Assembly (NCBI RefSeq): GCF_016526145.1
Contig: NZ_JADDUE010000001.1
Coordinates: forward strand, 186,001-250,000
Direction: 5' to 3'
Length of the DNA: 64,000 bases
From: Saccharopolyspora galaxeae
GTDB lineage: Bacteria > Actinomycetota > Actinomycetes > Mycobacteriales > Pseudonocardiaceae
Shown: piece by piece, positions 5,421-24,799 of the stretch
How the letters are laid out: the number at the start of each line of letters is the position of its first letter
How positions within the stretch are numbered: the first letter of the stretch is position 1
Made by a program: the position numbers and the translations under genes
The notes under the pieces: model-generated
The model's database searches: none
The model's input: only the letters and a program-made list of their open reading frames with translations
What the model was told of the DNA's origin: nothing

Positions 5421-6145
5421 GAGTCGGCCCGCCCGCGCCGGCCGCGCAACAGCGCACCGATGCCCACGCCGAGGCCGAGCGCGCCGACGAGCAGGCCCGC
5501 GCCGCCGAGCACGCGCGCGGTGTCGTCCGATGCGGGCGCGGGCTCGCCGGAACTCGGTGCGGCGCTGTCCGCGGGTGCGCCGTGGGAGTGCTCCTCGGTC
5601 GCGGGCAGCAGTTGCAGGCTGGGGGCCGGGCGCTCGGGCTCGGAACCGTCCGGTCCCTGCGACTGGTCCCAGCGCACCACTTCGCCGCTGTCGTAGGTCT
5701 GCTCGGCGGGAAGCAACACCTCGCCGGTGTCGGTGGGCAGGGTGCCGAGGGTCGCCTCGAACTCCTCGAACTGGTCCGGGGCGATCCTGGTGCCGGGCCG
5801 GGCGGTCCAGGTGATGCCGGAGACGGCCTCGGTGACCTCGGCGCCCGCCACGTTGACCGGCCGGTCCAGCCGCACCTTCTGCACCTGCGCCGTCCAGCCG
5901 GGCAGCGGGCGGGTGCGCACCGAACTCAGCGGGTGCTCCAGCGGCAGCGCCACGTGCACGCGGACGGTGCCCGCGTCCGGTCGTTCGTTCGGCACCCGGA
6001 AGGTGACCTTCGCGGTGCCGCCTTGCTCGGCTTGTTCCGGCTGCACGTGGACGTGCGCGGTGGCGGTGCCCGCGCCGGCGAGGGCGCTGAGCCCGATGGC
6101 TGCGGCGGTGACCGCGAGCCGCGCGGCGGGTCTGGATTCGTTCAT
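5417..6145 (-). CDS. YcnI-like (DUF1775) copper-associated protein
   Basis: A 242-residue protein. The signal peptide (about residues 1-30) ends TATA|HVHVQPEQ; the new N-terminal His is the copper ligand in YcnI family proteins. The DUF1775 beta domain follows (AKVTFRVPNERPDAGTVRVH, ending near TYDSGEVVRWDQ), then a Pro/Ser linker, one transmembrane helix and a basic tail. The ATG at 6145 fits the signal peptide; upstream in-frame sequence has no domain character. It is the first gene of a pair with the CopC-like gene, a common pairing in actinobacteria for copper handling at the cell surface. Confidence 0.88.
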   Translation of the reverse strand: MNESRPAARLAVTAAAIGLSALAGAGTATAHVHVQPEQAEQGGTAKVTFRVPNERPDAGTVRVHVALPLEHPLSSVRTRPLPGWTAQVQKVRLDRPVNVAGAEVTEAVSGITWTARPGTRIAPDQFEEFEATLGTLPTDTGEVLLPAEQTYDSGEVVRWDQSQGPDGSEPERPAPSLQLLPATEEHSHGAPADSAAPSSGEPAPASDDTARVLGGAGLLVGALGLGVGIGALLRGRRGRADS

Positions 6146-20077: not shown

Positions 20078-20566
20078 ATGGTCACGTCGATGCCGGTGCC
20101 GCTCAACTTCCGGCTGCCGGACGGTTGGACGCCTGCCCGCCCGGACGACGTCGGCGCCCCGGGCGCCGCCTTCGTCGCACTGCGCACGGCCTCGCAAGGT
20201 CCCGGCTTCACCACCAACATCACGATCGACGGCGAACATCGTTCGGATGAAGTGGAGCTGCCGACGATTGCCGACGAGTCGGTGCAGCAGCTGGCGGACG
20301 CCGGTTCCCAGGTTTCCGTGCTGAAGCGGACCGAAGTGGGGGATGCGGAATCCCCCGGGCTCACCCAGTTGCTGAAGATCGTCACGATGACCGGTGACGA
20401 GGTGCAGGACTTGACGCAATGCCAGGTTTACTTGGAAATGCCTGATGTGCACCAGCCGCAGCATCGCGCTGTGGTGCGGCTGGTGCTCACTGCCCCGGCC
20501 GAGGAGATCGACGGGTTGCTGCCACAGTTCCAGCTGTTCGTGGACTCGGTGCGGTCGAAGAACTGA
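20078..20566 (+). CDS. Hypothetical protein, DcrB/DUF1795-like
   Basis: A 162-residue protein that begins with a predicted globular domain without a signal peptide (VPLNFRLPDGWTP). The pattern of strands and two helices (AAFVALRTAS, ADESVQQLADAGSQVSVLK, and a final IDGLLPQFQLFVDSVR) resembles the Mog1/PsbP/DUF1795 fold, also seen in LpqN-type proteins near ESX loci. This is a fold-level resemblance judged by eye. The ATG at 20078 has GGAG seven bases upstream. It follows the WXG protein by 49 bp and likely belongs to the same transcript. Confidence 0.65.
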   Translation: MVTSMPVPLNFRLPDGWTPARPDDVGAPGAAFVALRTASQGPGFTTNITIDGEHRSDEVELPTIADESVQQLADAGSQVSVLKRTEVGDAESPGLTQLLKIVTMTGDEVQDLTQCQVYLEMPDVHQPQHRAVVRLVLTAPAEEIDGLLPQFQLFVDSVRSKN

Positions 20567-20764
20567 TCGGTCGCCTGCTGCACCGGGATTCGGTGCTGGG
20601 GGGTGTTGAACGGCCGGATACCGGGTTGCCACCGTGCGGGCAGCAGTGCGTGAACAGTTTTCAAAAGGGCTTCCCGGTGCGTCGAACTGTGCCACGATCC
20701 GATCGGATCAGCTTTCCGGCCTGGGGTTTCCCGGCCGGGCCGCGTGCTGGGAGGTCGGTGCACC

Positions 20765-22075
20765 GTGTTCGCTCGCCGGATCGTGGTCGTCGGAACCGGT
20801 TACGTCGGGTTGACCACCGGGGCGTGTCTGGCGTCGCTGGGGCATCGGGTGGTGTGCAGCGATGTGGACGCGGCGAAGGTGGCGCGCTTGTCCCGCGGTG
20901 AGGTGGGGATCCTCGAACCCGGGCTCGCCGAGCTTGTCGCCGAGGGGATCGCGGCGGGGCGGCTGGAGTTCGCGGTCGGTTCGGCGGGTGCGGTCGTCGA
21001 TGCCGAGGTGGTGTTCCTGTGCGTGCCGACTCCGATGGGGGCCGACGGCGCGGCGGATCTGGCGGCGGTGGAGTCGGTCGTGTCCGAGGTCGCCTGCGCG
21101 CTGCCTACCGGGTGCGTGCTGGTGTGCAAGTCGACCGTGCCGGTCGGTACCTCGGCGCGGGTGGCCGAGCTGGTCGGGCGACCGGACGTGCCGACCGTGT
21201 CCAACCCGGAGTTCCTGCGCGAAGGTTCCGCGGTGCACGACTTCCTCAACCCCGACCGGATCGTCGTCGGATCCGACTCGCAGGACGCCGCCGAGCGGGT
21301 CGCCGCGCTCTACGCGCGCCTCGGAGCGCCGACCGTGCTGACCGACGCCGCCAGCGCCGAACTGGTCAAGTACGCGGCGAACTGCTTCCTGGCCACCAAG
21401 TTGTCCTACGTGAACGCGGTGGCCGAGCTGTGCGAGCGGCTCGGCGCGAACATCTCCGACGTCACCGAGGGCATGGGCTACGACCGGCGGATCGGGCAGT
21501 CCTTCCTGCAGCCCGGGCCGGGCTGGGGCGGCTCGTGCCTGCCGAAGGACACCGCGGCGATGATGCGGGTCGCCTCGTCGGTGGGATTCGAGTTCGAACT
21601 GCTCGGCGCGGCGATCGACTCGAACGCGCGGCAGCGCGAGCGCGTGGTGGACAAGGTCGCCGACGCGTGCGGGGAAGGCTTGCGGCGCTCGCTGGAGGGG
21701 GTGCGGCTGGGCCTGCTCGGGCTCACTTTCAAGGCGGGCACCGACGACCTGCGGGATTCTCCGGCGCTGGCGGTCGCGGAGCTGCTGGCCGCGCGGGGTG
21801 CGGAGCTGGTGGCCTGCGACCCGGGGTTGTGCGGTGACGAGCCGGGCCTGCAGGGCGTGGTTTCGCTGGTCGACGACCCGTACGAGGCGGCGAAGGGATC
21901 GGCGGGGCTCGTGGTGCTGACCGAGTGGCCGCAATTCCGGGCGCTGGAGTGGCCGCGCGTGGCCGGGCTGCTGGCCGGGCCGGTCGTGGTGGACACCCGC
22001 AACCACCTCGACCCGGACATGCTGCGCCGCGCGGGAATCACCTGCCACGGCGCCGGACGGGTCGCCGTGGGTTGA
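20765..22075 (+). CDS. UDP-glucose 6-dehydrogenase
   Basis: A 436-residue enzyme that oxidises UDP-glucose to UDP-glucuronate with two NAD+. The N-terminal Rossmann motif is VVVGTGYVGLTTGACLA. The catalytic Lys lies in LVKYAANCFLATK, and the catalytic Cys in GWGGSCLPKDTAAM. The C-terminal domain carries LGLTFKAGTDDLRDSP, the second nucleotide-binding element. The GTG at 20765 follows GGGAGG by 11 bases and places the Rossmann strand at the N-terminus. The product feeds glucuronate-containing surface polysaccharides, consistent with the glycosyltransferase fusion about 3 kb downstream. Confidence 0.93.
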   Translation: MFARRIVVVGTGYVGLTTGACLASLGHRVVCSDVDAAKVARLSRGEVGILEPGLAELVAEGIAAGRLEFAVGSAGAVVDAEVVFLCVPTPMGADGAADLAAVESVVSEVACALPTGCVLVCKSTVPVGTSARVAELVGRPDVPTVSNPEFLREGSAVHDFLNPDRIVVGSDSQDAAERVAALYARLGAPTVLTDAASAELVKYAANCFLATKLSYVNAVAELCERLGANISDVTEGMGYDRRIGQSFLQPGPGWGGSCLPKDTAAMMRVASSVGFEFELLGAAIDSNARQRERVVDKVADACGEGLRRSLEGVRLGLLGLTFKAGTDDLRDSPALAVAELLAARGAELVACDPGLCGDEPGLQGVVSLVDDPYEAAKGSAGLVVLTEWPQFRALEWPRVAGLLAGPVVVDTRNHLDPDMLRRAGITCHGAGRVAVG

Positions 22076-22096
22076 GTCCGCTGAGCACTGCTCTGT

Positions 22097-22134
22097 TGAT
22101 CGACCCGGGCGCCGTCGGAGGGCGCCCGCGATCA
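22097..22134 (+). terminator. Hairpin terminator after UDP-glucose dehydrogenase
   Basis: An inner GC stem (22106-22113 with 22121-22128) and an outer TGATCG/CGATCA stem separated by a 3-nt bulge, with a 7-nt loop, 21 bp after the stop. Confidence 0.65.
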
Positions 22135-22281
22135 GCTCGCAACCTGTGGACGGTGCCGTTCCAGACGTCTCCGGACGCTTCCGCGGGAACGGGCGGTGGA
22201 CAGCTCGGCGAAGCGAACGTGAACGGTTGACGAGTCGTCCTTCAGCTTTCCGCACTGTGCGGCTTCGCCAGCGGAAACATG

Positions 22282-22394
22282 CCGTCCACAAGTTGTGGAC
22301 AAATCCCGTTTCCACAGGTCCGGCCTGTGGATGAACGGGGTTGTGGGCCGGGTTGTGCACAGCTGTGGATCGAGTTGTCCACAAGTGTGCACAA
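22282..22394. promoter_or_regulatory. Cluster of DnaA-box-like 9-mers
   Basis: Within 113 bp there are two exact copies of the actinomycete DnaA box TTGTCCACA (minus strand 22294-22302, plus strand 22375-22383). Near-matches of 7-8 of 9 occur at 22282-22290, 22308-22316, 22326-22334, 22353-22361, 22364-22372 and 22386-22394, in both orientations. Two weaker ones lie upstream (22145-22153, 22195-22203). The region sits between convergent genes, so a promoter role is unlikely, and no dnaA or dnaN is adjacent. It could be a DnaA-titration locus (datA-like) or a secondary initiator-binding site. Confidence 0.75.
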
Positions 22395-22429
22395 CTGCGA
22401 TTCGCGCCGCGCCGGCGAGCACCGCAGGC

Positions 22430-23092
22430 TCACGCCCCGAGCCGGTAGCCCATGCCGCGCACCGTCCGAATCCGGTCGCTGCCGATCTTGCGCCGCAGCG
22501 CGCGGACGTAGACGTCCACGACGTTGGAACCGGGATCGAAGTCGTAACCCCACACGTGCGAGAGGATCTGCTCCCGGGACAGCACCTGCCCGGAATGCCG
22601 CAAGAACAGCTCCAGCATCGCGAACTCCCGCGCCGTGAGGTCCACCGTCGAATCCGGCAGCTGCACCCGGCGGGTCCGCAGGTCCAGCGACAGCTCCCCC
22701 TCGCGCAGCACCGTCACGTCCGGCGTGCGCTCCGCCGAGCGCAGCCGCAGCCGCACCCGCGCCAGCAGCTCCTCGAACCGGAACGGCTTGGTCATGTAGT
22801 CGTCCGCGCCGCCTTCCAGCCCGGCGACCGTGTCGCTGACCGAGTCCCGCGCCGTCAGGATGATCACCGGGATGCTCACCTGCCGCGCCCGGACCTGCTG
22901 CAGCACCGCGAAGCCGTCCGGACCCGGCAGCCCCAGGTCGAGCACCGCCAAGTCGAAATCACCACTGATCAGGTGCCGGAACGCGCTGTCCCCGTCGCCG
23001 ACCGAGGTGGTGCTGAACCCGTTCGCGCGCAGCCCCTTCTCCAGGAACGCCGCGATCCGCCCCTCGTCCTCGATGATCAGGATCTTGCTCAT
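22430..23092 (-). CDS. OmpR/PhoB-type response regulator
   Basis: A 220-residue two-domain regulator. The receiver has the acidic pair in IIEDEG, the phospho-acceptor Asp in AVLDLGLPGPDG, Thr in ILTARD and Lys in YMTKPF. The C-terminal winged helix starts near residue 125 and includes DLTAREFAMLELFL and a typical recognition helix region (NVVDVYVRALRRKIG). Its ATG overlaps the stop of the kinase gene (ATGA). It is last in a three-gene operon. The kinase has a large external sensor, so it likely responds to an envelope signal. Confidence 0.93.
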   Translation of the reverse strand: MSKILIIEDEGRIAAFLEKGLRANGFSTTSVGDGDSAFRHLISGDFDLAVLDLGLPGPDGFAVLQQVRARQVSIPVIILTARDSVSDTVAGLEGGADDYMTKPFRFEELLARVRLRLRSAERTPDVTVLREGELSLDLRTRRVQLPDSTVDLTAREFAMLELFLRHSGQVLSREQILSHVWGYDFDPGSNVVDVYVRALRRKIGSDRIRTVRGMGYRLGA

Positions 23093-24543
23093 CAGTGCGC
23101 CTCCTCGGCGGTCGGGGAAGGGGCGGTCGCCGGCGGCCGGGCGGGCAGCTCGAGGGTGAACGTGGCCCCGGACCCGGGTTCGGAGCGCACCCGGACGGCG
23201 CCGTGGTGCGCTTCGGCGATCGCGGCCACGATCGCCAGCCCCAGCCCGGCACCGCCGCGGCGCCCGGAGCTGCCGTGCGCGAACCGGCCGAAGATCCGCT
23301 CCACCTCGGCGGCCTCGACGCCCGGCCCGCGGTCGGTCACCCACAGCGCCAGGCGCCCGCGGTCCAGCGCAGAGCCGAGCCGGATCTCCGATCCGTCCTC
23401 GGTGTGCTGCACCGCGTTCTGCGCTAGCTGCACCATCGCCTGGGTCAGCCGTTGCGGGTCGACCACCACGTCGCCCTCGCCGATGCTCTCCAACACCCAT
23501 CTGCGGTCCCCGAGCGAGCGGACCTTCGCCTCGATGTCGCTGGTCAGCTCCGCCAGCGGGAATTCGGTGGGCGTCACGAAATCCGGCCGGTCGGCCTTGG
23601 CCAGCATCAGCAGTTCCTCGACGATGCGGGTCATCCGGTCCAGCTCGTCGGTGCACAACCGGACCACCTCGTCGCGCTCGGCCGGGTCGTCCCCGAGCAG
23701 TTCGAGGTGTCCGCGCACGATCGTGATCGGGGTGCGCAGCTCGTGGCTGGCGTCGTCGACGAACTGCCGCTGGGTGCGGAACGCGGCCTCCAGCCGGTCC
23801 AGCATCGCGTTGAACTGGTAGGCCAGCGCGGCGATGTCGTCGCGCCCCTCGACCGGGATGCGCCGGGTCAGGTCGTGCTCGCTGATCTCGGCCGCGGTGT
23901 GCCGCACGGTGCGCACCGGCGCCAGGATGGCGCCCGCGACCACCCACGAAGAACCGGCGGCCAGCAGCACGCCGAACGCGCTGACCAGCGTGAGCGTCTG
24001 CGCGGCGCGGCGGACCTCGGCGAGTTCGTGCTCGGTGAAGTGCGCGGTGACGAACCACGCCCGCCCGCCCTGGGCGGTCACCGCCTGCACCTTCACCCAG
24101 CGCACCGGTCCGGCACCGGTCTGCGCGGTGCCGTGCGCGCGGGGGTCGGCGGTGATGCGTTCCAGCAGGCCGGGTTCCTGCACCGCCCGCTTGGTGCCGG
24201 TGTCCTGCGACTGCATCCGCCAGTCCAGGCCGGTCGGGGTCTGCCACGCCCCGATCAGCGCCTCCCAGGCGTCCGGGTACTGGCGGCCGAGGTGGGAGTC
24301 GAACAGCTGCGCCGGGTCGCCGAGCAGCGCGCCGGTGGCGGGGTCGCGCCCGGTGCGGGCGTAGTTGACGAACTCGCCGACTTCCTGCTCCATCGAGCCG
24401 GTGACCTTGTTCATCGCCTCGTTGTGCAGGAACTGCCACACCAGCAGGACCACCGCGGTCAGCACCGCGACCAGCACGAGCAGCATCCACGCCATGATCT
24501 TCGCGCGGGCGGGGAGGCGGATGCCGCGCAGCGGCTCAGTCAT
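23092..24543 (-). CDS. Membrane sensor histidine kinase
   Basis: A 483-residue kinase. A first transmembrane helix (about residues 15-40) and a second near residue 195 enclose an extracytoplasmic sensor of about 150 residues. HAMP follows (VRTVRHTAAEISEHDLTRRI), then the H-box DDASHELRTPITIVRGHLEL with the phospho-acceptor His, N-box AQNAVQHT, and G-boxes DRGPGV and GGAGLGLAIV. The ATG at 24543 overlaps the upstream small gene by 8 bp, suggesting coupling; ATG 24576 is in frame but further inside that gene. Cognate regulator is immediately downstream. Confidence 0.92.
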   Translation of the reverse strand: MTEPLRGIRLPARAKIMAWMLLVLVAVLTAVVLLVWQFLHNEAMNKVTGSMEQEVGEFVNYARTGRDPATGALLGDPAQLFDSHLGRQYPDAWEALIGAWQTPTGLDWRMQSQDTGTKRAVQEPGLLERITADPRAHGTAQTGAGPVRWVKVQAVTAQGGRAWFVTAHFTEHELAEVRRAAQTLTLVSAFGVLLAAGSSWVVAGAILAPVRTVRHTAAEISEHDLTRRIPVEGRDDIAALAYQFNAMLDRLEAAFRTQRQFVDDASHELRTPITIVRGHLELLGDDPAERDEVVRLCTDELDRMTRIVEELLMLAKADRPDFVTPTEFPLAELTSDIEAKVRSLGDRRWVLESIGEGDVVVDPQRLTQAMVQLAQNAVQHTEDGSEIRLGSALDRGRLALWVTDRGPGVEAAEVERIFGRFAHGSSGRRGGAGLGLAIVAAIAEAHHGAVRVRSEPGSGATFTLELPARPPATAPSPTAEEAH

Positions 24544-24799
24544 CGTCGGGGTCGTCCGGTTCGGGCTCGTCGTCATCGTCCGGTTCGGGTGGCGGCAACT
24601 CCGCGGTCGGGGCGGGGCCGGTGCTCGGCGCGGGCGCCGTCGGCACCGGCGTGGACGGACCGGGGGAGATGCCGACGCGCACTTCGGCGGGCACCTGCGG
24701 AGTTCGCGGGCCTTCGGTCAACGCGTAGCTGAGCACGACGACGAGCAGCGGCAGCGCCAGCGCGGCGAGCAGCAAGGACAACCGGGGCACCGACCGCAT
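24536..24799 (-). CDS. Small membrane-anchored acidic-tail protein
   Basis: An 87-residue protein with an N-terminal hydrophobic helix (about residues 8-28, LLLAALALPLLVVVLSYAL), a Pro/Thr/Ser linker, and a very acidic C-terminus (EPDDDDEPEPDDPDDD). GGAGGG upstream of the ATG supports the start. It is the first gene of the kinase/regulator operon and overlaps the kinase start. The family is not recognised. An acidic exported tail could bind cations or basic peptides and modulate the kinase sensor; this is inference from layout. Confidence 0.65.
   Translation of the reverse strand: MRSVPRLSLLLAALALPLLVVVLSYALTEGPRTPQVPAEVRVGISPGPSTPVPTAPAPSTGPAPTAELPPPEPDDDDEPEPDDPDDD

Follow-up and report, generated by a model that had tools for sequence, protein, structure and literature searches.

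A conserved cluster of alternating DnaA boxes near the replication origin of Saccharopolyspora, a probable DnaA-binding control locus

The box cluster and its position in the genome

The window, a stretch of 64,000 nucleotides of the Saccharopolyspora galaxeae genome (G000:C11:186001-250000), carries a non-coding cluster of DnaA-box-like 9-mers at 22282-22394, which has no strand of its own. It lies between the gene for a nucleotide-sugar (UDP-glucose) dehydrogenase (20744-22075, + strand) and the gene for an OmpR-family response regulator (22430-23095, - strand). The regulator's partner, a sensor histidine kinase (23092-24576, - strand), served as bait for fetching the corresponding loci of relatives. 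A hairpin just after the UDP-glucose dehydrogenase stop (22097-22134) is likely the terminator of the dehydrogenase gene.

The initial annotation had counted eight box-like 9-mers in both orientations within 113 bp, two of them exact, and all eight were located. Sub-array A consists of box A(+) (22282-22290, +; CCGTCCACA, 2 mismatches) and box A(-) (22294-22302, -; exact TTGTCCACA). Sub-array B consists of B1 (22353-22361, +; exact TTGTGCACA), B2 (22364-22372, -; the degenerate CGATCCACA), B3 (22375-22383, +; exact TTGTCCACA), and B4 (22386-22394, -; exact TTGTGCACA). Between them lie two degenerate boxes, GTTTCCACA (22308-22316, +), close to where other species have their third A box, and the spacer box TCATCCACA (22326-22334, -), which has no counterpart at that place in the aligned relatives. 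Hence, the two exact TTGTCCACA boxes are accompanied by two exact TTGTGCACA boxes, and exact TTGTSCACA makes up four of the eight boxes, the other four being degenerate. The count of eight results from a relaxed criterion, which accepts at most one mismatch to TTGTCCACA, TTGTGCACA, or TTATCCACA and also admits two mismatches if the CCACA/GCACA end is retained.

Such a density is above the background. With a strict set of 39 words, the cluster contains 5 boxes in 113 bp, and none of 100 copies of the window generated by an order-3 Markov model exceeded 2. With the relaxed set, 8 boxes per 113 bp compare with at most 2 in each of 20 same-genome stretches of 20 kb, which were placed at round coordinates rather than drawn at random; a rough Poisson estimate from this background gives ~3e-7 such clusters per genome. 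The possibility that similar densities occur by chance at other loci was thus not borne out in these 20 stretches. The genome contains 47 copies of exact TTGTCCACA (reversed control, 13) and 21 of exact TTGTGCACA (control, 6), and nowhere else among the places listed for the two words do four exact boxes fall within ~100 bp; in the rplI-dnaB gap, three of them lie in 64 bp. Five or six relaxed boxes per 113 bp were found in that gap, in the upstream region of an acetoacetate-CoA ligase gene, and in the 5' part of dciA, all in stretches that had been picked for exact boxes or for dnaA. We conclude that the cluster comprises several DnaA boxes outside the dnaA-dnaN origin at a density above background.

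About six degenerate DnaA-box-like words lie in the 5' part of dciA, between recF and gyrB (L032:13385-13450; G000:C11 ~151.4 kb). A hydrolase gene and an acetoacetate-CoA ligase-like gene also have boxes between them (L033:9974-10018; G000:C11 ~348.5 kb), as does a similar pair of genes in G004 (L142:9758-9801); these hydrolase/ligase-like sites are 150-200 kb from dnaA.

The dnaA gene occupies C11:145422-146501 (+), and the genes after it are dnaN, a recF-like gene, dciA, and gyrB. The earlier remark that dnaA and dnaN are not adjacent is true of the window; dnaA is nevertheless on this contig, at a distance of just ~62 kb. The cluster lies 61.8 kb downstream of the dnaA match, which corresponds to ~2% of half of the 6.4-Mb genome. 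It was rejected as oriC itself, because it is outside dnaA-dnaN and 61.8 kb away. In 20 of 20 genomes the module is located downstream of dnaA, at 59.3-78.9 kb in 19 of them and at 116 kb in G402. These 20 (G000 and G401, which are one species, both counted) are those among 27 dnaA-searched genomes that have dnaA and the module on one contig; the distance table omits G381, G390, and G398, with the two on different contigs, G016, with a weak hit only, and G026, G272, and G280, which represent other genera and other loci. The shared distance may be due in part to conserved synteny rather than to selection on the distance.

On the other side of oriC, outside the window, the rplI-dnaB gap (L034:9767-9920; G000:C11:81766-81919) carries same-orientation DnaA-box-like repeats upstream of dnaB, and this dnaB has an intein-sized insert. 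DNA matching the array was found 57-69 kb upstream of dnaA in eight genomes, and the boxes were checked in six. In seven genomes, the cluster is 59-79 kb and the rplI-dnaB array 63-69 kb from dnaA. A strict symmetry of the two about oriC was rejected, since in G016 a weak module hit lies at ~122 kb and the dnaB array at 57 kb.

Conservation, geometry, and neighboring genes

A DNA search of 60 genomes yielded matches in 32 of them (E <= 1e-3). Scanning the returned loci for boxes revealed the 4-box module in four other genomes of the same GTDB genus, to which both the window's genome and G002 belong, and also in G017 and G029, which are assigned to other GTDB genera. We then used a sequence model of 54 columns, built from seven sequences, which matched 194 of 390 family genomes at E <= 1e-3. 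The listed matches with at least 42 bits belong to g1, g14, g26, and g13 of the Saccharopolyspora lineage, with G067 as the one exception (42.7 bits, partial), and the listed hits outside Saccharopolyspora are mostly weak. In the window's genome, the matches listed are only the cluster, on both strands, and, weakly, the rplI-dnaB array.

The neighboring kinase provided a way to find the locus by alignment, and 34 loci were fetched. The cluster is present in all 15 Saccharopolyspora loci (L080-L092, L096, and L097), while groups of at least three boxes near the kinase were found in 0 of 11 loci from the other Pseudonocardiaceae genera Allokutzneria, Actinophytocola, Saccharothrix, Amycolatopsis, Actinokineospora, and Actinosynnema. 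L093 has two weak model hits ~3 kb away on the other side of the kinase. Eight distant loci (L106, L107, and L108-L113) were left uncounted; L106 and L107, searched with the model only, gave no match. Absence from close relatives, which would have spoken against a functional locus, was therefore not observed: the cluster occurs in the same-genus genomes and in all 15 loci. Among the kinase loci compared (15 versus 11), it is confined to Saccharopolyspora, and the clade is narrow.

Box groups were also noticed at other places. S. endophytica (L082:351-389) and S. aridisoli (L084:289-327) have an extra three-box group ~11.8 kb from the main cluster. In G015, two groups (L043:5093-5145 and 5561-5603) are present on a small contig near TetR-type and PEP carboxykinase genes; the second is a 4-box group, and the locus is unrelated to the regulator locus. 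In the two genomes of genus g8 that were examined (L143:9318-9359 and L144:9769-9810), a 4-box alternating 11-bp array is located between an aminotransferase gene and a sigma-factor gene, ~411 kb from dnaA in G280. Its geometry is that of the main cluster and its locus is unrelated.

The architecture of the cluster is rigid. Box orientation alternates (+ - + -), with steps of 11-13 bp within the sub-arrays. The consensus of sub-array B is TTGTGCACA(+), B2(-), TTGTCCACA or TTATCCACA(+), and TGTGCACAA(-), in 11-bp steps; in sub-array A, a (+) box is followed after 12-13 bp by a (-) box and often after a further 11 bp by a (+) box. At the place of A(+), relatives have TCTTCCACA, TTTTCCACA, TTGTCCACA, or other words. 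Measured on the box lists, A(-) and B3(+) are separated by 80-82 bp in 15 of 21 aligned clusters, by 70-71 bp in 5, and by 78 bp in G402; G017, in which sub-array B is present and the spacing of A is different, is not among the 21. The five short clusters (hirsuta, oryzae, kobensis, indica, and G388) are missing B1 and B2 (5 of 22 sequences), and the long and short registers differ by 10-11 bp, i.e., by one box unit or helical turn.

The spacer between the sub-arrays has ~35 bp and 56-85% G+C; in the five clusters without B1 and B2, the spacer as delimited runs into the B region. Just after sub-array A, ~26-40 bp from the start of box A(-), a sequence similar to TGACCWGSGAAAAC is partly conserved in the 16 clusters from outside the window's genus (e.g., in L081, L085, and L097), and it may mark the binding of a second protein. 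The five clusters of the window's genus lack it and have a different string instead (window 22317-22350). The outer flanks of the 16 clusters are weakly conserved, the majority residue mostly reaching 30-50%. A link of the TGACCWGSGAAAAC-like motif to oriC was considered and rejected: words with at most three mismatches occur in several oriC stretches, and also in other 20-kb stretches.

The genes around the cluster are much less constant. The convergent gap between the UDP-glucose dehydrogenase and response regulator genes, described in the initial annotation, is real in the window but not general across Saccharopolyspora: the dehydrogenase is the direct convergent neighbor in the five clusters examined from the window's GTDB genus, and in 12 of the 15 Saccharopolyspora loci, as well as in G017, G402, and G016, a DASS-type transporter gene is next to the cluster and reads away from it. 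Beyond the DASS gene, a glycerate kinase match follows in 11 of those 12 loci; the sequence of L089 ends earlier. Since gamma-glutamyltransferase and dehydrogenase genes lie further along in L087 and others, the dehydrogenase gene could have come to lie at the cluster through a deletion in the lineage of the window. The regulator gene is at the locus in 15 of 15 cases (the loci having been chosen by its kinase), and 8 of the 15 have an EamA-type gene between it and the cluster; in seven loci with an EamA-type gene between, the cluster is >2 kb from the regulator gene. In eight loci, the cluster starts 2-6 bp past the end of the upstream reading frame.

Importantly, the cluster is retained where neighbors are gone. 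L080 and S. subtropica (L086) have it without a DASS or glycerate kinase match, S. rosea (L092) has it with no DASS match and a partial glycerate kinase, and G388 (L139) has it with no kinase, DASS, or glycerate kinase match and a regulator reduced to a 54-residue match. These gene-loss calls refer to E <= 1e-15 within the fetched stretch. The persistence of the cluster during the turnover of its neighbors points to a function of its own. Because the geometry is kept across Saccharopolyspora while nearby genes come and go, we regard the cluster as a probable site of replication control, not as a piece of a gene.

DnaA as the predicted ligand and alternative explanations

Comparison with the dnaA locus suggested which protein may recognize the boxes. 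Upstream of dnaA, five of seven genomes have the arrangement TCRTGCACA(+), 11 bp, TTRTCCACA(-), and all seven, among them two of one species, have another, 12-bp box pair. This inverted geometry is that of the cluster, and similar boxes are present in the dnaA-dnaN gap. In G003, G004, and G017, the boxes precede the first base of the dnaA record, where such records usually begin. In other bacteria, boxes upstream of dnaA bind DnaA. Furthermore, the box-binding domain of the genome's DnaA closely matches the Mycobacterium tuberculosis DnaA domain 3pvp (E 1.6e-40), with RDHTTVM kept. Together, these sequence data provide strong support for DnaA as the predicted ligand of the cluster. For domain I of actinomycete DnaA, the available part of one study describes head-to-head dimers, proposed to link distant boxes (PMC13270200); such dimers would suit inverted box arrays. 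With moderate confidence, we suggest that several DnaA molecules would form a complex at the cluster and be sequestered there.

We favor the view, with a probability of about 0.6, that the cluster serves Saccharopolyspora as a DnaA-binding control locus, close to oriC and independent of the surrounding genes, which takes up DnaA after its early duplication. DnaA would fill the alternating boxes, about one helical turn (11 bp) apart, cooperatively and form a compact complex, held by the two sub-arrays in their fixed register. Being within ~2% of a replichore from oriC, the site would be duplicated almost at once after initiation, and because it is copied so early, each initiation would quickly double the DnaA sites. 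The doubled sites could draw DnaA off oriC, delay the next start, and help to stop re-initiation.

With at most eight boxes, half of them degenerate, simple stoichiometric titration could be weak, and the fixed register, the alternating orientation, and the spacer stretch of the 16 clusters exceed what a passive sink needs. The loss of B1 and B2 in five of 22 sequences, the narrowness of the clade, and the strong hairpin formed by sub-array B also weigh against the favored view. As the rigid register and the spacer stretch point to a complex of a specific kind, the main alternative is a structured nucleotide switch for DnaA, which would act by datA-like ATP hydrolysis or DARS-like ADP release, the sub-arrays folding over the spacer, perhaps with a second protein. 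The short form, smaller by one 11-bp unit, and the TGACCWGSGAAAAC-like stretch in 16 clusters outside the window's genus would be in line with this, and the Escherichia coli elements are described as depending on the spacing between boxes and IHF/Fis sites (PMC5742627, in the part available). However, the window's genus is without that stretch, and its five close relatives have another string; the spacer is G+C-rich at 56-85%, not A+T-rich; and in DARS cores box I is opposite to boxes II and III, whereas the boxes of the cluster alternate. The switch is accordingly a rather unlikely reading. Its more specific form, a Saccharopolyspora-specific bipartite switch that would change DnaA activity by register-locked arrays, with a spacer protein in most species and in concert with the rplI-dnaB array, is similarly doubtful.

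The remaining explanations tie the cluster to its surroundings. A promoter element for a flanking gene, responsive to DnaA or to another factor, would fit the DASS-type gene that starts after the cluster and reads away from it in 12 of 15 loci and in G017, G402, and G016, and DnaA is described as a transcription factor elsewhere (PMC4447404, available part). Yet matches to DASS and to glycerate kinase are missing from L080, L086, and G388, and L092 has only a partial glycerate kinase, with the cluster kept in all; the neighbors are convergent in the window's genus; and a scan restricted to sigma-70-like promoters found none in 22000-22500. A promoter thus appears improbable, as the initial annotation had supposed, although the case rests on neighbor turnover, the convergence adduced at that time not being general. 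Binding of another protein, e.g., the adjacent OmpR-type response regulator, is suggested by the close linkage to the regulator gene in most relatives and by the 11-bp step; 11-bp repeats are usual for this regulator family. Against it, G388 (L139) keeps the cluster with the 54-residue regulator match and no kinase match, in seven loci it is separated from the regulator by >2 kb and an EamA-type gene, and the very same 9-mers occur upstream of dnaA and between dnaA and dnaN; we consider such a site hardly credible. Both the response-regulator and the flanking-promoter readings lose ground because the cluster is retained where genes have been lost. A transcription terminator that acts in both directions, between convergent genes, is suggested by the start of the cluster 2-6 bp after the upstream reading frame in eight loci and by favorable RNA folding: sub-array B (22347-22400) gives -30.4 kcal/mol (z -4.5) on the + strand and -26.3 kcal/mol (z -5.0) on the - strand, and 22276-22346 also folds well (z -5.1). 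Alternating boxes, however, yield such a hairpin automatically. Among 22 sequences, 82.1% of cells pair, compared to 82.9% in shuffles, covariation is not above that of shuffles, and the lower pairing in slid registers (23-61%) is expected from inverted boxes alone. In addition, the 5' arm is lost in five sequences, a scan found no terminator-like site with a T run, and the dehydrogenase gene has its separate hairpin at ~22097-22134. On the basis of folding, terminator scan, and pair counting together, a terminator was rejected as the conserved function and is, as an explanation of the cluster, very improbable; in the window's genome, the hairpin may add to termination, but this is not what is conserved. 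No Rfam match to a known RNA was found in 20500-23500.

Significance and comparison with known DnaA-box clusters

DnaA-box clusters outside oriC are an established kind of element, already known in a few other bacteria. In titles and abstract openings of the literature, we found no description of this Saccharopolyspora locus. New here is an element that is present at every Saccharopolyspora locus examined, with a fixed alternating geometry that is kept through the loss of neighbors. To our knowledge, the limitation of replication initiation in hyphal actinomycetes with multiple chromosomes is poorly worked out. The compact conserved element offers a small deletion target for studying initiator titration in a second actinomycete lineage, and the alternating 11-bp geometry, common to the dnaA upstream region, could serve as a substrate for analyzing the assembly of actinobacterial DnaA on inverted boxes.

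The initial annotation had proposed a datA-like locus. For a conserved group of DnaA boxes away from oriC that is of the same general kind as datA, the support is good; it does not extend to datA proper, i.e., to IHF-dependent DnaA-ATP hydrolysis. Both datA and the cluster are non-coding groups of DnaA boxes outside oriC. They differ in sequence and context. datA needs an IHF site, which lies between essential boxes, and promotes DnaA-ATP hydrolysis (available parts of PMC5742627, PMC5835720, and PMC5295017). Between the sub-arrays of the cluster is the spacer of ~35 bp, in which 16 clusters carry the partly conserved stretch and those of the window's genus do not; a protein may bind there. 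The copy number of datA after replication is described as important, and moving datA to the terminus led to untimely initiation (PMC5742627, available part). With E. coli DARS1 and DARS2, the cluster shares a small number of DnaA boxes at fixed spacing; the DARS core, with box I opposite to II and III, differs from the + - + - order seen here (same part of PMC5742627).

Streptomyces coelicolor reportedly has DnaA-box clusters outside oriC, namely H24, H69, and D78, in the work of Smulczyk-Krawczyszyn et al. from 2006. The likeness is that of an actinobacterial DnaA-box cluster outside oriC, with the function tested in Streptomyces and predicted from sequence in Saccharopolyspora. In both Bacillus subtilis and S. 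coelicolor, such clusters repress untimely initiation, according to the available part of PMC5742627. Deletion of six clusters in B. subtilis caused early initiation, which was partly relieved by one restored cluster (Okumura et al. 2012, via PMC5295017); the part of PMC5295017 available also states that the B. subtilis clusters with significant roles were not identified. B. subtilis has six loci; here, one locus of this geometry is accompanied by arrays of other geometry at replication genes.
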